Positions 2,548-34,710 of a DNA stretch of 35,205 nucleotides are shown here, piece by piece (within the stretch, counting starts at the first letter, position 1; every line of letters starts with the position of its first letter). The translations under genes were made by a program, and so were the position numbers. The notes below the pieces were generated by a model. The model was not told where the DNA came from. It saw only the letters and a program-made list of their open reading frames with translations, and made no database searches. Origin of the DNA: a virus; IMG/VR virus record IMGVR_UViG_3300035670_000744, positions 1-35,205 of that record; one strand, 5' to 3'.

Positions 2548-2751
2548 TCAACCGCACGTGATCTTTACGCGAACGGTGCGCGTATTTGGTTGGTTGCCCC
2601 GCGCCATCTCGGCCTGCTCCCGATTCGCAAAAAGCCTCGGGATCATGTATCCATGTTCCGCAAGAATCTTGTTGTCGAGCATCAGATATGTCCGGTGCCT
2701 GCGAGGGTCGCCCATGCAAACAGCGTAATAGGTTTCTTTGATTGTGCTCAC
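2548..2751 (-). CDS. Hypothetical early protein, 67 aa, GTG start
   Basis: The start is GTG at 2751, forming a GTGA overlap with the stop of the preceding gene. This start gives the sensible opening MSTIKETYYAVCMGDPRRHR and avoids a long Arg/Ala-rich artefact extension. The product is small and basic, with YLMLDNKILAEHGYMIPRLF followed by ANREQAEMARG. It looks like the short phage proteins that resemble host YmfR/DUF-type small proteins, but I cannot name a family. Coupled to the DUF6378-like gene upstream. Confidence 0.65.
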   Translation of the reverse strand: MSTIKETYYAVCMGDPRRHRTYLMLDNKILAEHGYMIPRLFANREQAEMARGNQPNTRTVRVKITCG

Positions 2752-3311
2752 GGCCCCGGCCTTTCCCCCGTCGTCGCCCACTCGTAGCACAGGAGGTAGC
2801 CGTAGGCGTCCACCAGGTTGTCGCGCTTCGGGCGCCGCGCCTCCCGCCGCAGCTTCAAAGCCTCCATCATCAGCAGGGCTTCCTCGCAGGTGATGTCCGA
2901 CTCGAGCTTGTCGTGAAGCAACCCGCTCCACATCTTCGCGATGCCCTCGAAGTCGCCGCGCGGTGAGCCGTAATCGTCGTTGCGCTCGCCCAGCACCAAA
3001 CGGCACGCAGTTGTAAAGGCTGACTCGGGCAGGTCGACGGCGTTGAGGTCTGCGTGCTTGTCGGCATCAGTCATCGGCGTGCACGGCGGCGGCAGGTGGT
3101 CCATGTCGCCGGGTTTTGCGACGGGCATCTCGCGGTAGCAAACCACCTCCTCGTATTCAGGATGGCAGACCGCATAGTCCTCGATCGGCAACCCAAGCTC
3201 ATTGGGATGAGCCTCCCAATAATCGCCGCAGCAAGCGAGCAGATCGCCTGGCTCGACTTTGCCGTCACAGATCATTTGCCTGCCTTTGATGAGCTCTTGG
3301 GCGATGCTCAT
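2748..3311 (-). CDS. DUF6378-like phage protein, 187 aa
   Basis: The C-terminal half has a pattern I associate with DUF6378 phage proteins: NDDYGSPRGDFEGIAKMWSG, then an EEALLMMEALKLRREARRPK helix, then RDNLVDAYGYLLCYEWA. The N-terminal half (about residues 1-100) is a separate acidic, Cys-containing region (LLACCGDYWEAHP, YEEVVCYREMPVA) that may be its own small domain. The start at 3311 is supported by GGAGG with a 7-nt spacer and by an ATGA overlap. A nucleotide-metabolism role is possible since the helical layout recalls MazG-like proteins, but this is not established. An internal MTDADKHADLN could be an alternative start for the C-terminal domain alone. Confidence 0.75.
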   Translation of the reverse strand: MSIAQELIKGRQMICDGKVEPGDLLACCGDYWEAHPNELGLPIEDYAVCHPEYEEVVCYREMPVAKPGDMDHLPPPCTPMTDADKHADLNAVDLPESAFTTACRLVLGERNDDYGSPRGDFEGIAKMWSGLLHDKLESDITCEEALLMMEALKLRREARRPKRDNLVDAYGYLLCYEWATTGERPGP

Positions 3312-3541
3312 ATGAAGACCTCCATGGTCCGCAGGCGAAGAAAACGCGGCGGGATTTCCTGTTGGGATTCCTGCAGTTCCTCGATGAGCTGCAGCGCCGC
3401 CGAGAGCCGCGCGACCTGTCGCCCGGCGTCGGCCTCCACCATCGTGCCGTTGTCGACCCATCGCGAGTAAACCTTGCGTCGCATGGCCAGCTCGCGCCGG
3501 ATCTCGGCTTTCATGTCATCGATCGTGACCGCGGTTTGCAT
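3308..3541 (-). CDS. Hypothetical helical protein, 77 aa
   Basis: A short, mostly helical protein: MQTAVTIDDMKAEIRRELAM, then a VYSRWVDNGTMVEADAGRQV segment and a hydrophobic-heptad stretch RLSAALQLIEELQESQQ. The composition suggests a small coiled-coil or dimeric helix-hairpin protein. It starts 2 nt after the stop of the SSB-like gene and overlaps the next start by ATGA, so it is clearly in the recombination operon. No family recognised. Confidence 0.7.
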   Translation of the reverse strand: MQTAVTIDDMKAEIRRELAMRRKVYSRWVDNGTMVEADAGRQVARLSAALQLIEELQESQQEIPPRFLRLRTMEVFI

Positions 3542-3543
3542 GG

Positions 3544-3975
3544 TCAGAACGGAACGTCCTCCGTGGTTTGGGCGACAGCTTTGGCCGGCTGCTTGTGTCG
3601 CAGTTTCCCGGCGACAGCGGAGAGTTTCTCCGCGAGACCTGGCGGCGGTGGCACCGGTGGTTTGGATGGCGAATTGATCCAGCGCACACGCAGCGCCGTT
3701 TTGCCCTGGTAGTCGTGCTCCTCCACGACGATCGAGCACGGGCGCCCGATCATCTGATCGACGCAGGCGAAGTCGCCGTCGAAGTCGAGCGCGTCTTCGA
3801 GTGTCTGCAGGCTGCGCTCGAAGGCCTTATCGGAAAAGTAGACCCACGCGCCGATGTGCTCGCCTGCCTCGGTATCGAAGCCGAGGTAAACGTACGGAGT
3901 GCCGGTCGCGCTTTCGCCGACCTCGGCCTTCGAGACGGTGACCGCGTAGCGGCCGGGTTTGCTGATGAGTGGCAT
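3544..3975 (-). CDS. SSB-like / DUF669-type ssDNA-binding candidate, 143 aa
   Basis: The protein opens MPLISKPGRYAVTVSKAEVG and continues with beta-strand-like segments (YVYLGFDTEAGEHIGAWVYF, CSIVVEEHDYQGKTALRVRW), compatible with an OB-fold of the DUF669 phage type. A proline-rich linker (PSKPPVPPPPG) follows, and the very end is TTEDVPF, matching the acidic-aromatic tip of bacterial SSB proteins (DDIPF) that recruits partner enzymes. It lies between the Sak4-like ATPase module and the early small genes. I infer that it binds single-stranded DNA during annealing or replication. The start at 3975 sits 2 nt after the previous stop. Confidence 0.75.
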   Translation of the reverse strand: MPLISKPGRYAVTVSKAEVGESATGTPYVYLGFDTEAGEHIGAWVYFSDKAFERSLQTLEDALDFDGDFACVDQMIGRPCSIVVEEHDYQGKTALRVRWINSPSKPPVPPPPGLAEKLSAVAGKLRHKQPAKAVAQTTEDVPF

Positions 3976-3977
3976 GA

Positions 3978-4694
3978 CTAGACGATGCTCCTGGCTTCCT
4001 TCCAGACGCGAAGGCCTGGCAGTTGTTGGTTTTGCGGTTGTTTGATCGCCGCGCGGATTGCGGCCGCGTTTGGCGAAAGGGTCACGAGGTAGGGCGCGGC
4101 CTGATACAGCGCCTGGATGTCGGTCACCTCGAAGCACCAGGTCTCGCGGACCGTGGCACCGGCCGGCCGCGAAAGCGCGACCTGCGCCTCGGCCTCCTGC
4201 CGGGCCTGGACGATGCGCTCGACAGCGACCTGCTGGATCGCGGCAGCATGTTCGGCTGCCTGCTGCGCGTCCGCGGCGTTGCGTTCGGCCTCCCGCTGCC
4301 GGCGCTCGGCCTCGCGGCGGATTCGCGCCTCTTCCTCGGCGGCACGACGGCGCGCCTCTTCGGCCTTGCGCCGCTCCTCGGCCTGCCAGGCTCCGAGCAC
4401 GCGCGAGATCCGGGTGGCCTCGGTGTCGACCGAGCTGGTCAGCTCCTTCGCCAGCGCGTCGATGCGGCGCGAAAGCTCGAGCACCGGCGCTTTGACCTCG
4501 ACGCGCGAGGCCTCGACCTCGCGCACCATGTCCTTGCAGCGCTTGAGCGTCTCGCCCGCGGCGTCGGCGTCGATCTGGTCGACAACCGAGTTGATCGTGG
4601 CGGCCTCGGCGAGCAGCTCGTCGCGCCGCGTTTTCGCACCTTCGAGAACGTCGATCTCGACGGTGCCGGTTCCCCTGACGGTCAGGTAGTTCAT
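3978..4694 (-). CDS. Coiled-coil recombination-operon protein, 238 aa
   Basis: The N-terminal about 95 residues are helical and charged (LEGAKTRRDELLAEAA, EASRVEVKAPVLELSRRIDA). The middle (about 110-175) is a long Ala/Glu/Arg-rich coiled coil (ERRKAEEARRRAAEEEARIR). The C-terminal about 60 residues form a globular tail with WCFEVTDIQALYQAAPYLV and end KEARSIV. This architecture recurs in phage proteins next to RecT or Sak-type annealing genes, where the tail is the conserved part, but its activity is unknown to me. ATG at 4694 overlaps the Sak4-like stop (ATGA), supporting co-translation with it. Confidence 0.75.
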   Translation of the reverse strand: MNYLTVRGTGTVEIDVLEGAKTRRDELLAEAATINSVVDQIDADAAGETLKRCKDMVREVEASRVEVKAPVLELSRRIDALAKELTSSVDTEATRISRVLGAWQAEERRKAEEARRRAAEEEARIRREAERRQREAERNAADAQQAAEHAAAIQQVAVERIVQARQEAEAQVALSRPAGATVRETWCFEVTDIQALYQAAPYLVTLSPNAAAIRAAIKQPQNQQLPGLRVWKEARSIV

Positions 4695-5836
4695 GGTGTG
4701 GGAATGCCGACGGCCCGCGCGAAGCGGTCGGTGCGCTCGCGGATGCTGCGCATCTTCTCTTCCGAGAGATCCTTCCACGACTGGCCCGGCTGGATCCACT
4801 TTACCTTGACCAAGTATTCGTTGATCTCGGCCGTGTATCCGGTGAGCCATTGCGTGATGTCGGCGGCCGGCGCCTTGGGCGGCTGCGGCGCGGCCTCGTT
4901 CATCTTCTGCTGGATCCAGCCGATCGTTTTGTCGGCCTGCTCCTCCGTGAGCTCGGCGACGGAGACCTGGCCGGCCTTGTCGAGCGCGGCCTGCACGAGC
5001 GGGGCGCCGATCGAGTTCTGCGCGTAGAGCGTCAGCTTCTCGATCTGTTCCTGCGTGGCGTTTTTGAAGACCGCCTGCGGCGCGGCCTCATGCACCCCTC
5101 TGTCTTGCACTGCCCCCCCTGTCGCTGTCGCCGTCGCCGCAGGCGGAATTGTGGATCCACCGAGCCAGGTCAGCAGGCGCTGGCCGGTTTCCTCGGTGAT
5201 CTGGAAGATGGCGTCGCCAAAAAGCTGCGTGCGGTCCTTCGTGGCTTTGGCCGTGTGGTCAAGCGCGATGTCGAGCACGGTCGTAAACTCGTAGTCGGCA
5301 CCCTCGCGAAAGACCGGCGCCAGGCCGACCTTGCGCGGTGTCTGCCGGCCCTTGTCGTTCTGTTCAAGGACGTATTCGGTCTTCGAGCGCAAGCACGCGA
5401 TGACGTGCACTGGCGCTTGCAGGACCGCGTTGAGCCCGGCCTTGAACTTCTCGCCGGCCTGGTTCCAGTTCGTGAAGCTGTTGCCGCCCCGGTTGTCGAG
5501 CTGGCTCTTGTATTCGAGGACGCCTTCCCAGAAGTGAGAGGCGCTGTCGATGATCGCCACGCTGTAGCCGTTCTCGATAGCGGCCTTCATGAAGTCGGTG
5601 AACTTGTCCCAGGTGAACGGCGGCTCGATGTCGACCTTGTCGAACTCGAACTGCTGCGCGTAGAGGTCGGCGCTGCGGTTCTCGGTGTCGCCGAGCAGGA
5701 TCGGTCCGCCGTTGGCGAGGCCGGTTGCCATGCGCAACGCGCTGAACGTCTTGCCGCTTCCGGCCACGCCGGTCAGCGCGAGTTTGAGAAATGCCGCGCG
5801 TCGCACGGCCTTTCGGATCTGTAGTGGGGTGCTCAT
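4691..5836 (-). CDS. Sak4-like RecA-type ATPase (AAA_24 family), 381 aa
   Basis: Residues 1-210 form a P-loop ATPase: Walker A GVAGSGKT at 23-30, GPILLGDTENRSADLY, Walker B-like VAIIDS at 93-98, then HFWEGVLEYK. This is the pattern of phage Sak4 single-strand annealing/RecA-core proteins (AAA_24). A variable Ala/Thr-rich linker follows and then a C-terminal extension (about 260-381) with helical QIEKLTLYAQ and EEQADKTIGWIQQK segments. It probably loads or anneals ssDNA with the SSB-like product encoded downstream. The start at 5836 has no SD, and a GCC pentamer array lies 60-160 nt upstream. Walker motifs are clear; the Sak4 label rests on family resemblance. Confidence 0.85.
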   Translation of the reverse strand: MSTPLQIRKAVRRAAFLKLALTGVAGSGKTFSALRMATGLANGGPILLGDTENRSADLYAQQFEFDKVDIEPPFTWDKFTDFMKAAIENGYSVAIIDSASHFWEGVLEYKSQLDNRGGNSFTNWNQAGEKFKAGLNAVLQAPVHVIACLRSKTEYVLEQNDKGRQTPRKVGLAPVFREGADYEFTTVLDIALDHTAKATKDRTQLFGDAIFQITEETGQRLLTWLGGSTIPPAATATATGGAVQDRGVHEAAPQAVFKNATQEQIEKLTLYAQNSIGAPLVQAALDKAGQVSVAELTEEQADKTIGWIQQKMNEAAPQPPKAPAADITQWLTGYTAEINEYLVKVKWIQPGQSWKDLSEEKMRSIRERTDRFARAVGIPTP

Positions 5837-5894
5837 TTCAGTCTTTGGTCATGGGTGGAAATTGGTGCGACCTGTTGCGGCCGGTCGCCCGCCG

Positions 5895-5998
5895 GTGTTG
5901 CGATGGCTTGCCTTGCCGTGCCTCGCCGGGCCGCGCCATACCTCGCCTGCGATGCCAGGCCAAGCCTGGCCGTGCCCAGCCGTGCCCTGCCTGCGATG
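5895..5998 (-). repeat. GCCNN pentamer array 1
   Basis: The interval between the 160-aa gene and the Sak4-like gene is filled with GCC repeated at 5-nt spacing on the plus strand (GCCTT, GCCGT, GCCTC, GCCGG, GCCGC, GCCAT and so on). Two GCGAT interruptions occur at 5949-5953 and 5993-5997. In the transcript the unit reads NNGGC, so GG pairs fall every 5 nt. A perfect 7-bp inverted repeat with a 3-nt loop lies at 5954-5970 (GCCAGGC, CAA, GCCTGGC). The gene-proximal edge GTGTTGCGATGG (5895-5906) resembles the edges of the other arrays. No SD or promoter was seen inside. Confidence 0.8.
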
Positions 5999-6481
5999 TC
6001 ACTTGGCGGCTGCACTGAGCTCGAGCTGTTCAATGGCCCTGAAGATCGGAGCCAAGGCGGAGAGCGTTTCGTATTTGCGCCGGAACGCGCGGAGGTCGCG
6101 CATGGCGCTGTCGAGCATCTGTCGCGTCCATTGCTCGCTTTCGAGAACCTGGTCGATGCTGACGTAAACGCCCTTCTTACTCGCGTCCTCTTCGTCCTCG
6201 TCGGCGGCCTGCTGCACAACCGGCCGCACGTTTACGAAGGCGCGCACGACGCTTTCGGTTCCGGCCCGCACTTCGCGTCTGACCTTGACCGTGCGGATCA
6301 GGAAAGCGGCCTGCACGAGCCGATACTGCTCGCCGGCCACCTTGTCGTTCCACTCGAAGGACGAGTGAAGCGGCGACGTTTTCGGCCTTGCGGCCTCGAC
6401 GACGATCTCGGGAGTGAGAGAGCCGTGTTTCTTGTGAAGCTCGATGAGGGCTTCACGGACGCTGACCATTTTTCTGTTCAT
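5999..6481 (-). CDS. Conserved phage protein of the recombination operon, 160 aa
   Basis: The N-terminal about 70 residues carry a motif I have seen in many phage early proteins of unknown role: LTPEIVVEAARPKTSPLHSS followed by FEWNDKVAGEQYRLVQAAFL and IRTVKV. The C-terminal half is helical (DQVLESEQWTRQMLDSAMRD, LRAFRRKYETLSALAPIF). Start 6481 (MNRKMVS) was chosen since longer readings run through the pentamer array. An alternative start is M5 at 6469. No SD is visible, and the gene stands apart from both neighbours by arrays rather than overlapping them. Its location suggests a DNA-binding or replication accessory role. Confidence 0.75.
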   Translation of the reverse strand: MNRKMVSVREALIELHKKHGSLTPEIVVEAARPKTSPLHSSFEWNDKVAGEQYRLVQAAFLIRTVKVRREVRAGTESVVRAFVNVRPVVQQAADEDEEDASKKGVYVSIDQVLESEQWTRQMLDSAMRDLRAFRRKYETLSALAPIFRAIEQLELSAAAK

Positions 6482-6519
6482 GAGGAAATAGGTCCGGCGG
6501 TAATCCGCCGCCGGTCGGT

Positions 6520-6735
6520 GTTGTTGCGCTGTTGCGCCACGCCTGGCCTCGCCTCGCCTGGCCTCGCCGCGCCTCGCCGTGCCATGCCGCGCCATGCCCG
6601 CGTTGCCGAGCCGGGCCTGGCCGCGCCTAGCCTCGCCTGCGTTGCCATGCCCGGCCACGTTGCGCCATGCCCCGCCAAGCCGTGCCTGCGATGCCTTGCC
6701 TTGCCGTGCCTTGCCCGGCCCCGCCTGCGATGCGT
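6520..6735 (-). repeat. GCCNN pentamer array 2, longest
   Basis: About 215 nt consist largely of NGCCN pentamers with the GCC core phased every 5 nt. Interruptions of GCGTT or GCGAT occur near 6600, 6639, 6688 and 6727, which divide the array into blocks. The gene-proximal end is GTTGTTGCGCTGTTGCGC at 6520-6537, preceded by CCGGTCG. The array has no stop codon in one minus-strand frame, so automatic gene callers extend the downstream gene through it, giving degenerate 5-residue repeats such as ARRGE. It separates the 207-aa gene (stop at 6751) from the 160-aa gene (start 6481). Confidence 0.85.
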
Positions 6736-6750
6736 TTGCCAAAAGAACCA

Positions 6751-7374
6751 TCACTCGACGCGGAAGGATCCGAATCCCATGCCGCAGCTCATCTTGCTGT
6801 CGTTGCGCCCCTCTCCGATGCCGACCTGCTCGCCGACGCGGACGAGGAGGTTGGCAATGTCGGTCTCGGTGAACTGGTCGGCGTCGTAGCGCACCTTGAG
6901 CTCGCACGACCACGGCCAGAACTTGGCCCGCACGCGGAGGTCGATCACGCCGGTAGCGTTGCGGGCGTGAAGCATGAAGAGCTCGGGCTTGGCGTGGATG
7001 CGGACAAGCGGCGTGTCGTCGACCTTGTCGAAGCCGTCCGGCGGCACGAAGACCGAGAGCTTGGCCATCGTCATCTTGAAGCCGACCAGCCGGCACGCGG
7101 AGATGAGCGCGTTGCGAAAGGCCGACGCCGGGATCCCGTTCCATCCGTCGGTCGAAATGTGTTGGGCCTGCTCGAAGTCGCGCTGGAAGTCGCGCGCTTC
7201 TCTCTGCTTGCCCTTCTTTCCGGTCGAGCCGGCCGTCATCTTGGCGGCCATTTCGTTGATCGCCTTCTGCGAGAATCGCAGCTGGACGTATGGCGCGGTT
7301 CCGACGAGCGTGAACTGCGCGGTTCTGATGTTGGGCGCCGTAACGGCGACCGTGGTTTCTGTCTGCTTTTTCAT
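6751..7374 (-). CDS. Conserved phage protein, 207 aa, unknown
   Basis: The protein opens MKKQTETTVAVTAPNIRTAQ, then FTLVGTAPYVQLRFSQKAIN. A basic Lys/Gly-rich linker (about 47-60) is followed by a region containing IPASAFRNALISACRLVGF, and the protein ends GMGFGSFRVE. The IPASAFRNAL and closing GxGxF features loosely recall RAMP/Cas7-type folds, but the context is a Sak4/SSB recombination operon and no CRISPR is present, so I do not assign it there. The start at 7374 has AGGGG just upstream. A role in the recombination operon is inferred from position only. Confidence 0.75.
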   Translation of the reverse strand: MKKQTETTVAVTAPNIRTAQFTLVGTAPYVQLRFSQKAINEMAAKMTAGSTGKKGKQREARDFQRDFEQAQHISTDGWNGIPASAFRNALISACRLVGFKMTMAKLSVFVPPDGFDKVDDTPLVRIHAKPELFMLHARNATGVIDLRVRAKFWPWSCELKVRYDADQFTETDIANLLVRVGEQVGIGEGRNDSKMSCGMGFGSFRVE

Positions 7375-7456
7375 TTTCCCCTTCGTGTCTTTGGTTGAGC
7401 GCGTCGGTCAGTGGGGTGCCTCAGCGCAAAGAGTCCGGGATTACGCGCCCGGTCGC

Positions 7457-7597
7457 GTTGTTGCGTTGTTGCGCAGGGCCTCGCCGAGCCCTGCCTCGCC
7501 TTGCCTGCGTTGCGTTGCCTTGCCCCGCCGGGCCGCGCCTCGCCTGCGTTGCGGTGTTGCGCCCTGCCTAGCCTTGCGCCGCCAAGCCACGCCTCGG
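7457..7597 (-). repeat. GCCNN pentamer array 3
   Basis: A third array of GCC cores at 5-nt spacing fills the space between the 122-aa HTH gene and the 207-aa gene. It includes GCGTT interruptions near 7507, 7512 and 7546. Its gene-proximal edge, GTTGTTGCGTTGTTGCGC at 7457-7474, is identical to the edge of array 2 except for one base, and is again preceded by CCGGTCG. The distal third is less regular (GCCCTGCCTAGCCTTGCGCC). About 80 nt without repeats separate its edge from the start at 7374. Confidence 0.8.
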
Positions 7598-7613: not shown

Positions 7614-7982
7614 TCATCGCTGCGCCCTCTCCTTCTTCCTCCAAATCCCGTGTTCGTGGAGGATCGCGCTGATCGTCCAAGCCGACACGCCGGACGCTTT
7701 GGCGATCCGCTCGACGGTGACTCCGCTCTTGGCCATCGCGACGACGGCCTCTCGGCCAGCCTGGCCGAGTGTCTGCCAGCCCGGCGGCATCTTCCTGCGC
7801 TTCACGCTGTAGAGCTTGCGCGGCACGCCCTGGATCACCGGCCGCGGCATCTTCACCAACCCGGCCTTCACCGCGGCGGCCAGTTCGGCTGGCGTGATGG
7901 CCCGCTGAGCCAGTTTGAACACCGACTTTGCCATGCCGGCCTCGTAGTAGGCCGCGCAGGAGGATGCTTCGGCGGCGGTCAT
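7614..7982 (-). CDS. Helix-turn-helix protein, 122 aa
   Basis: The C-terminal segment at about residues 80-112 reads as a helix-turn-helix: VVAMAKSGVTVERIAKASGV then SAWTISAILHEHG. The very end is basic (IWRKKERAQR). The middle has PRPVIQGVPRKLYSVKRRK, and the N-terminus is short and Ala-rich. It probably binds DNA as a regulator or replication accessory of the early operon. The start at 7982 gives an ATGA overlap with the upstream membrane protein gene. Its 3' end abuts array 3. Confidence 0.72.
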   Translation of the reverse strand: MTAAEASSCAAYYEAGMAKSVFKLAQRAITPAELAAAVKAGLVKMPRPVIQGVPRKLYSVKRRKMPPGWQTLGQAGREAVVAMAKSGVTVERIAKASGVSAWTISAILHEHGIWRKKERAQR

Positions 7983-32184: not shown

Positions 32185-32930
32185 TTGCGGATCAGCTGGA
32201 ATGCGTCGTAGGGAATGGTGAGTGATCGTGCCCCGTCGGTTCCCATGCCGTGCACACGCAGCCCGAGCAACTTGATCCGGCACACGAGCTCGACGTCGAC
32301 CTCGTCACCGTCGACCATCACGCCGAGGCAGCCGGCCAACTTGAGGTCGTGCGGCCTGGATAGAAGACGCTCGGCCGCGGCGCACGACCACGGCAGGCGA
32401 AGCAAGCGGATCGACTCGATTGCGTCATCCTGATATGCGCATCGCTCCAGTCCGAAGACGACGGCGTTGGTGAAGGCGGGAAAGCGCCACGAGAGATCGC
32501 GGACATACTCCGAGAACCACTCCGGCCCAAGCGGCAGGCAGTGGATCTGCAGTTGCCACGGCCGGGCTCCCGGCGCGTGCTTGATGAGGTAGTGCTCCGC
32601 GTGCCAGCGGTCGAGCACCGGGAACACCGGCTCGGTGGCGCCGTATGGCATGTATGTCAGCGTGTCGGCCTCGAACGGAGCCTCGCGCCGGTTGCTGACC
32701 CAGAGGATTTCGTCCGGCCGAATTGAGGAGATGATTTCGCGAATTGACTTGGGCTCGGCGCGCGTCACGCCGACGTCGACAAAGCGCACGCGCATCGTGA
32801 GCGCGTCGACCGCAGCATTGTAGGCCGGCGCGGCCGGATAGACCGCGGACCCATCTGGCAGCGGCACGGTATCGACCAGGTAGAGCCTGGTGCGATCGAG
32901 GTCATTCTGTCGTGGCAGTTTCGAGGTCAT
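32181..32930 (-). CDS. Cysteine-poor radical-SAM-like paralogue, 249 aa
   Basis: The product lacks a CxxxCxxC cluster, yet parts align by eye with the radical SAM enzyme encoded next. Examples: EYVRD (141-145) with DYMRD (247-251), LPWSCAAAE (179-187) with LPWSAMCRA (291-299), AGCLGVMVDG (199-208) with SGCFGVKVGF (313-322), and LGLRVHGMGTDG (222-233) with IGMTVHGTFTIG (353-364). The N-terminal part (SIREIISSIRPDEILWVSN) resembles the B12-domain half. This suggests a catalytically dead or altered partner subunit. It overlaps the terminase end by 29 nt and the radical SAM start by ATGA. Function is inferred. Confidence 0.7.
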   Translation of the reverse strand: MTSKLPRQNDLDRTRLYLVDTVPLPDGSAVYPAAPAYNAAVDALTMRVRFVDVGVTRAEPKSIREIISSIRPDEILWVSNRREAPFEADTLTYMPYGATEPVFPVLDRWHAEHYLIKHAPGARPWQLQIHCLPLGPEWFSEYVRDLSWRFPAFTNAVVFGLERCAYQDDAIESIRLLRLPWSCAAAERLLSRPHDLKLAGCLGVMVDGDEVDVELVCRIKLLGLRVHGMGTDGARSLTIPYDAFQLIRK

Positions 32931-34710
32931 GTTTTTCCACTCCGATCAGTTTGAGCATGAGCGCCGCGGCGACCTGCATCGCCTCGCAGTCGCGAAGATG
33001 GTTCGGCGAGCCGCTACGACGAAACCAGCGCAGTTCAATTTGGCCGCTGGTCTTGTTCACGCGCTCGACCTTGCGCTCGGCCTGCATGTGCTGCCGGTAG
33101 TATTCCGGCGCGTCGTCCGGTGTCTCGAAGGCGACGCCGCGGCCGCAATAGAGGCGGTGCAGCACGTCTTTAACCGGATCCGAGCTCCAGTGGATGTAAC
33201 GCGCGACGCTGCCAGAGACCTGCGCATAGCGGACTGGCGACCAGAAGCGGGCGACGCGCGCCTTGTTCGGCAAATCGTGCCAGAAGGATCCCTGGCCGCT
33301 GCCGTGCAGCGCCGTCCAGCCGTAGCGGATGCAGTCGTTATAAACGTCGGAGGTCGCGTGCTGCGCGTCCTCGAAGACCATGCGCGATGGCACGAGGAAG
33401 CGCTGTGCGATGGCCTGGCAGTCCTCGATTGTCAGCAGCTTCCCGCACCAGAGCAGGCGGCTGGATCCGTCGGCGCGCCAGGCGCGCACCAGCGCCCAGA
33501 AGTGGTCGCGCTGTCGGTCGATGGTGGCAAAGCGGTATTTCTCGCCTTCGATCTTGGCAGCCGGATCCTTGGCGACCTCGGCCAGCGTGTAACCGCTGCC
33601 GGTCACCTCGACCTGTTCGTCGAAGTCGGCACTCGACTCCTCCCAAGGCAAGGCGCAGCGCTGGCGGATGAAGTCAGCGATGCCTTGGTAGAGCCCGCGG
33701 TGCTTCTGGTTCGATGCCTCGGCCCATTGCGCGGCCAATGTGGCGATGTCACGTGAGACAAGCGCCTCCCATCGGTAACTGCGAATGTGCGCCGGCGCAT
33801 CGTCTCGGCCGGCCAGGTAGCGGCCTTCGGCGTTCCAAAGCGTGTGCGTGCGCGGCGTGTCGGCGTGGTCGTGGCCGCAGAGCCGGCAGCGGAAGCGGGC
33901 CGTCTCGGCGACGCGCTGCACGTTCCAGTCGCCGCGCTCGGTGCGCGCGGCATCATCCCAGGTGACGCCGGCGTAGCGGAGCGGGTCGTCCGCCATTTTC
34001 GCGAAGAACGTCAGCGGCACCCACTGGCGGCAGCCCTCGCAGCGGATCGACCAGACGGCCTGGTGGCCGGACTGCCAGGCGCGGTCGAAGTCGTCGCCCT
34101 TGGTGCCGCCCTGGCTCTCGTTTACCACCTTGCTCGTGCCGGCGCGGTCGAAGGCCGTCACGCGGCCTCGCGCGTGGTCGAGCAGTCCGGCTTTCCAGAG
34201 CCAGACCTCCGAGTTGAACTTCCACCGGATCGAGACGCGCTGCAGGTTGTTGATGTTGGCCCCGTTCACCATCCAGAAGTAGGGCCCGAAGTAGATGCTG
34301 CCGGTCGCCAGGTCGTAGCCCTTGGGCAGCATTTGCTCGACCACCGGACAGGCGCGCATGAGCGCGAGGAATCGCTGCTTCCAGTGCTCTTTAGCGTCCT
34401 GGTCGGTCTGCAACGTCCACATGCCGGGCCCCGGCTCGTTCACCATGGCCCAGAGCTGGGCGAGCTCGACGATCAGCGTCTTGCCGGTCTGGATGGCGCC
34501 GGCCAGGCTTACCTCGCGCACGAGCGGATCCTGGATCGCGGCCAGCGGCTCGAGCATGTGGCGCGAGGTCTCGACCGAGAAGCGGCCGTCGACCGCGTAA
34601 GCCGGCGGAAGCACGACGTGGTCCGCGGCCCATTCCCAGATCGGTCGACGATCCGGCTTGAGCCAGCCGTTGCGCCATGAGCGCGTCGGGAAATCAAGCA
34701 TCGCCACCAT
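32902..34710 (-). CDS. Terminase large subunit, GpA-like, 602 aa
   Basis: Walker A GAIQTGKT (about 71-78), an adenine-side LQTDQDAKEHWKQRF segment, the WKFNSEVWLW region (about 163-172) in the position where GpA proteins have Walker B, two CxxC pairs (C224/C227 in SIRCEGCRQW and C275/C278 in FRCRLCGHDH), and a nuclease-region start FATIDRQRDHFWALVRAW (about 394-411). These identify a GpA-family packaging motor. The Walker B acidic pair is not the usual DE and is represented by SE. Alternative start MLDF at 34701. The gene ends inside the next gene's start region. Confidence 0.9.
   Translation of the reverse strand: MVAMLDFPTRSWRNGWLKPDRRPIWEWAADHVVLPPAYAVDGRFSVETSRHMLEPLAAIQDPLVREVSLAGAIQTGKTLIVELAQLWAMVNEPGPGMWTLQTDQDAKEHWKQRFLALMRACPVVEQMLPKGYDLATGSIYFGPYFWMVNGANINNLQRVSIRWKFNSEVWLWKAGLLDHARGRVTAFDRAGTSKVVNESQGGTKGDDFDRAWQSGHQAVWSIRCEGCRQWVPLTFFAKMADDPLRYAGVTWDDAARTERGDWNVQRVAETARFRCRLCGHDHADTPRTHTLWNAEGRYLAGRDDAPAHIRSYRWEALVSRDIATLAAQWAEASNQKHRGLYQGIADFIRQRCALPWEESSADFDEQVEVTGSGYTLAEVAKDPAAKIEGEKYRFATIDRQRDHFWALVRAWRADGSSRLLWCGKLLTIEDCQAIAQRFLVPSRMVFEDAQHATSDVYNDCIRYGWTALHGSGQGSFWHDLPNKARVARFWSPVRYAQVSGSVARYIHWSSDPVKDVLHRLYCGRGVAFETPDDAPEYYRQHMQAERKVERVNKTSGQIELRWFRRSGSPNHLRDCEAMQVAAALMLKLIGVEKHDLETATTE

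Follow-up and report, generated by a model that had tools for sequence, protein, structure and literature searches.

Three punctuated GGCNN arrays interleaved with a RAMP-fold gene and a candidate accessory gene identify a probable VIPR locus in the genome of an uncultured phage

The Viral Interference Programmable Repeat (VIPR) system, described in a preprint of April 2026 (PMC13142463), is built around Vipr, a small (~20 kDa) ancestral RAMP protein, and vrRNAs made up of YNNGG repeats, with a fixed GGY and a hypervariable NN, followed by a structured 3' tail that forms a pseudoknot in one clade; a vap gene is often present as well (PMC13142463). Through their NN pairs the vrRNAs recognize double-stranded DNA, skipping one base in each unit; natural targets include competing phages, satellites and prophages, and programmable targeting has been shown in relatives (PMC13142463). 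VIPR is encoded mainly by phages or proviruses and has been proposed as an ancestor of CRISPR (PMC13142463).

We analyzed a 35,205-nucleotide stretch of viral DNA (IMG/VR record IMGVR_UViG_3300035670_000744, positions 1 to 35,205; hereafter, the window), for which a preliminary description had reported degenerate GCCNN arrays in three gaps of an operon and had named no known phage element of comparable build, a statement now superseded by the description of VIPR (PMC13142463). The window almost certainly carries a minus-strand VIPR locus, in which the arrays are vrRNA genes lying beside the gene for a guide-binding protein, and its order on that strand is array 3, vipr, array 2, candidate vap and array 1. 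The locus resembles the VIPR systems of Escherichia phage SUSP1 (solved Vipr, PDB 36pp) and of the Pseudomonas fulva prophage (type II) in its RAMP-fold Vipr and in having (GGY NN) repeats next to vipr and in its coding sense, and it shares with VIPR a 3' tail with a predicted pseudoknot, a phage-borne location and, putatively, an accessory gene (PMC13142463). The SUSP1 vrRNAs, however, are separate, ~100 nt long and composed of 9-16 repeats (PMC13142463), whereas the arrays of the window are spread over three gaps in a single operon, where marks divide them into blocks that mostly hold 7-9 units, fewer than the published range.

The periodicity of the arrays is pronounced. Pairs of GCC cores at a lag of 5 nt number 12, 30 and 14 in gaps 1, 2 and 3; in 2000 dinucleotide shuffles they averaged 0.70, 2.04 and 0.98 and peaked at 5, 7 and 4. 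The preliminary description was therefore right that the fill is too regular for chance, and its further observations, that the period is not a codon multiple and that the units differ, are likewise borne out. Far from recurring all over the genome, the pentamer pattern is confined to the three gaps and to one strand: a sliding scan of the window detected no further lag-5 GCC array outside these gaps and none on the opposite strand, and the pattern GCCNNx6 yielded 18 matches in the forward orientation, none in reverse and none with a reversed-pattern control. The gaps first delimited at 5895-5998, 6520-6735 and 7457-7597 do hold the arrays, but the repeat tracts themselves (~17-36 units each) are refined to ~5899-5997 (array 1), 6535-6736 (array 2) and 7471-7595 (array 3, the first transcribed), with non-repeat tails adjoining on one side. 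The genes flanking all three arrays lie, without exception, on the minus strand, so that array transcripts would carry (GGC-NN)n instead of GCCNN. The preliminary description was right that roles in transcript structure or protein binding are possible; it had missed the match between array strand and transcription strand, the RAMP-fold gene between arrays 2 and 3 and the information carried by NN.

We assign the gene at 6751-7374 (minus strand; 207 aa, PHROG phrog_4652) to Vipr, a RAMP-fold (Csm3/Cas7-like) guide-binding protein, on the combined basis of profile searches, structure prediction and residue conservation. A profile built from 64 homologs and searched against the PDB retrieved 36pp, annotated as "SUSP1 Vipr protein", with E=3.3e-35, the match covering positions 2-188 out of 191; the runner-up scored E=0.17. 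The window sequence on its own matched 36pp weakly (E=0.51), if as the sole match, and homology is thus founded on the family profile and on the fold. The AlphaFold model (pLDDT 92.5, pTM 0.85) retrieved with Foldseek, among the matches listed, only CRISPR Csm/Cmr or type VII subunits; the best VIA-align superposition on a chain of a Csm complex reached Z 11.9 (146 aligned residues, rmsd 3.1), and when the whole chain is aligned with Csm subunits, residues 14-207 are covered. Five residues are invariant among the 64 homologs (R149, W155, G181, G185 and G202), and the three glycines preserve the RAMP glycine-rich loop near the C-terminus. Comparison of the Vipr alignment with Pfam and PADLOC yielded no credible family in the former and no family in the latter.

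The gene between arrays 2 and 1 (5999-6481, minus strand; 160 aa, PHROG phrog_15946) likely encodes a VIPR accessory protein, judging from its linkage to vipr: homologs are present in 60 of 122 vipr-bearing loci. Its fold is predicted confidently, but a Foldseek search with the model returned nothing below E 0.5 and no match to a solved structure, and for this reason we designate it a candidate vap only. Downstream of the arrays, and outside VIPR, lie a gene for an AAA_24/Sak4-like ssDNA-annealing protein (4691-5836, minus strand) and an exonuclease gene. The "recombination operon" of the preliminary description holds for these two neighbors, but the genes flanked by arrays are vipr and the candidate vap.

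Just upstream of array 3, a minus-strand gene (7614-7982) encodes a 122-aa product with no Pfam or PHROG match, the C-terminal part of which (VTVERIAKASGVSAWTISAILHEHGI) resembles a helix-turn-helix. The minus-strand gene at 2748-3461 carries a DUF6378 domain, and the PHROG label "phosphofructokinase" on the same stretch looks doubtful. The terminase large subunit (32902-34710, minus strand) has Verrucomicrobia phage P8625 as its nearest annotated relative, at 23% identity, which hints weakly at a Verrucomicrobia phage. Given this distant relationship and the lack of a PHROG match for most other long open reading frames tested, the phage belongs to a poorly sampled group.

The arrays follow a block-and-mark layout. 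Across all fetched loci, successive GGY cores are spaced by 5 nt in 6,292 instances and by 4 nt in 238, and 228 of these 238 tetramers read GGCA-GG(C/T), where the hyphen denotes the break. Distances between breaks are mostly of the form 5k+4, with peaks at 39, 44 and 49 nt. The GGY is fixed, while all 16 dinucleotides occur at NN, at 3-11% each and with about two thirds starting in a purine. The GCGTT and GCGAT interruptions noted earlier do break the arrays of the window into blocks; read in the mRNA sense they become A[AT]CGCA-GGC marks (A[AT]CGC[AG]-GGC in the more permissive form), mostly 39, 44 or 49 nt apart, against GGCA-GGY in relatives. Between marks, the blocks of the window consist mostly of 7-9 pentamers (one has 12) plus one tetramer. 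A mark often stands ahead of the first block as well. Parsed in this manner on the minus strand, array 3 comprises about three blocks of GGCNN units, with AACGCA marks at 7545-7550, 7511-7516 and 7462-7467; array 2 comprises four, of 7, 9, 7 and 12 units, with marks at 6731-6736, 6687-6692, 6638-6643 and 6599-6604; and array 1 comprises two, of 8 and 9 units, with ATCGCA marks at 5992-5997, 5948-5953 and 5899-5904. The preprint also mentions staggered, overlapping arrays (fig. S18; PMC13142463), and, as far as that mention goes, our block-and-mark layout may be what it terms "staggered arrays with overlapping vrRNAs".

The non-repeat tails, which the preliminary description had overlooked, are each predicted to fold into an H-type pseudoknot on the minus strand. 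The predicted helices are ACGCG / CCGGG / CGCGT / CCCGG for the tail of array 3 (7431-7470), CCG / CCGGCGG / CGG / CCGCCGG for that of array 2 (6491-6534) and CGGC / GCGACC / GCCG / GGTCGC for that of array 1 (5853-5898). The corresponding counts of shuffles scoring as high (0, 1 and 2 of 200) are indicative only, since the tight loop limits of the pseudoknot finder made it miss the tail of one relative (locus L140). Comparative evidence comes from 17 distinct tails of relatives, which have in common the arrangement ACCG[CG]-loop-[CG]CGG[GA]GTA; farther 3', another segment base-pairs with the loop to form an H-type pseudoknot. The first helix (P1) pairs in all 17, and the second (P2) covaries, with an observed pairing sum of 243 that was reached in none of 20,000 partner permutations (maximum, 221). 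The three tails of the window differ from those of the relatives in sequence and have the same topology. No obvious tail was seen in Cyanophage Cy-LDV1, and tails are consequently not universal.

Searches for the array pattern located similar loci predominantly in viruses. A DNA scan of IMG/VR for GCCNNx7 returned at least 120 stretches, and a pattern incorporating the interruption of the window was found in 42 viral contigs, whereas a longer version matched just two contigs in 84,980 bacterial and archaeal genomes. One of these contigs (JAPKZA010000114.1), binned in an "Acidobacteria" metagenome-assembled genome (MAG; isolate LacPavin), carries a vipr locus with a punctuated array and a pseudoknot tail; it holds all the pattern matches of this 7.9-Mb MAG and is possibly proviral, or else a virus binned in error. 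The window itself derives from a virus record with a terminase gene, and its relatives are mostly viral contigs.

Loci were gathered by array DNA pattern alone, with no protein query, and the subset with diverse NN amounts to 146. A homolog of the Vipr encoded in the window was present in 112 of these 146 loci, and 32 viral loci retrieved with unrelated patterns contained no such homolog. GGC and the vipr coding sequence share a strand in 110 of the 112 cases. In relatives, the array commonly starts ~5-20 nt from an upstream stop codon. The recurrence at equivalent gene junctions of related phages that the preliminary description had proposed as a check is observed in Cyanophage Cy-LDV1 (BK059895.1), where unannotated punctuated GGCNN arrays occupy both vipr/vap junctions (6650-6829 and 7448-7587) and where Vipr is 60% identical to that of the window. 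In Mycobacterium phage Quico (NC_028751.1), an unannotated GGCNN array with 41 lag-5 pairs (2617-2855) lies upstream of a vipr homolog that itself has homologs in 27 mycobacteriophage records, and in Gordonia phage UmaThurman (NC_031249.1) the array follows the vipr homolog. UmaThurman gene 40 (3598-3921), annotated as "hypothetical protein", lies almost wholly on the GGCNN array and is therefore probably a false gene call.

Searches for natural DNA targets found none above chance. When 651 decoded repeat tracts were compared with all fetched loci, allowing skips of 0 to 4, no skip rose above background. Three guides decoded from the window (A1B1, A2B2 and A2B4) had 16, 7 and 9 matches in viral contigs, respectively, with flanks or extensions agreeing at chance level, and most matches of A2B4 fell on a common peptide motif, AMTEAEQEE or a near variant; no good match to the window guides was found in the window's own genome. 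A Quico guide had no match in viral contigs. In 396 genomes of the phylum to which the LacPavin MAG belongs, a guide from its vipr contig had two one-mismatch matches, neither convincing, and A2B4 had none. For an uncultured phage such as this one, the missing targets are weak evidence against guides. Given this outcome, the 1-nt skip rule, processing at the marks and the guide length are inferences for the clade of the window.

One alternative is that the arrays bind Vipr only as an operator or an autoregulatory leader, an RNA scaffold without a guide function. The arrays do occupy untranslated stretches of the very operon that includes vipr, and no target emerged for the three window guides or for the two taken from other phages, but a hypervariable NN next to a fixed GGC is expected of guides and not of an operator, and programmable targeting has been demonstrated for relatives (PMC13142463). 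We accordingly regard this reading as very improbable. A degenerate pentanucleotide satellite, in which slippage arrays drift neutrally and serve no function, has even less to recommend it. Tandem Repeats Finder sees weak arrays of period 5, 10 and 15 at this locus, and the 5-nt period is that of pentanucleotide microsatellites, from which, however, the arrays differ in varying at two of five positions through all 16 dinucleotides while GGC stays fixed, in being punctuated and in keeping their strand relative to a single gene family, as the near-constant orientation with respect to vipr illustrates. Neutral drift is also at odds with break spacings that adhere to 5k+4 through a nearly invariant tetramer, and with the restriction of pattern matches to one contig of the LacPavin MAG, and we deem it extremely improbable.

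Equally hard to credit is a role as recombination boundaries, or as R-loop or G-rich hot spots that help the neighboring Sak4-exonuclease module to shuffle genes. The Sak4-like and exonuclease genes are situated just downstream and it is the non-template strand that is rich in G, but the phage whose Sak4-like gene is closest, Pseudomonas phage KLEP17-4, has no array in the stretch read. The arrays track vipr and not recombinases, so that the hot-spot role raised in the preliminary description gains no support, and such a role would leave both the hypervariability of NN and the covarying tail unexplained.

Under the VIPR reading, and by analogy with the described systems (PMC13142463), the arrays would be transcribed as vrRNAs in which a (GGC-NN)n scaffold is followed by a pseudoknotted 3' tail, and Vipr subunits would line the vrRNA, one per GGC, to form a ribonucleoprotein. 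The NN pairs would then provide gapped guide pairing with double-stranded DNA, one target base being skipped per unit, and the guided Vipr would act as a repressor of genes in rival phages, satellites or prophages. The locus has in common with class 1 CRISPR-Cas systems (Csm3/Cas7) the fold of its protein, as measured by the structural superposition above, the use of short constant marks to delimit variable segments and, by the same analogy, a presumed RNA-guided logic. Unlike CRISPR-Cas, it presented repeat-finding tools with only degenerate short-period arrays and not with long, identical direct repeats that alternate with unique spacers, its Vipr alignment contains no Cas family recognizable by sequence in Pfam or PADLOC, and its specificity would reside in NN pairs every 5 nt instead of in a contiguous spacer.

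Together, these results define a new, previously unannotated member of VIPR. Its identity accounts for repeat-filled gaps in the named phages Cy-LDV1, UmaThurman and Quico; one of these gaps carries a protein-gene annotation. Of the whole finding, the punctuation grammar most deserves follow-up. It is conceivable, though we hold it only tentatively, that the arrays of the window clade are miniature repeat-spacer arrays, with the GCA-GGC mark, which stands before the first block and follows most blocks, acting as a processing or register signal by which a single precursor yields several gapped guides, each independent of the others; if marks do divide the precursor in this way, the arrays would stand structurally between single vrRNAs and CRISPR arrays. 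The locus, first spotted blind in raw sequence, brings with it more than a hundred relatives from viruses, in which the block grammar is uniform and the tail covaries, and their guides are thereby made readable and their targets searchable in bulk.
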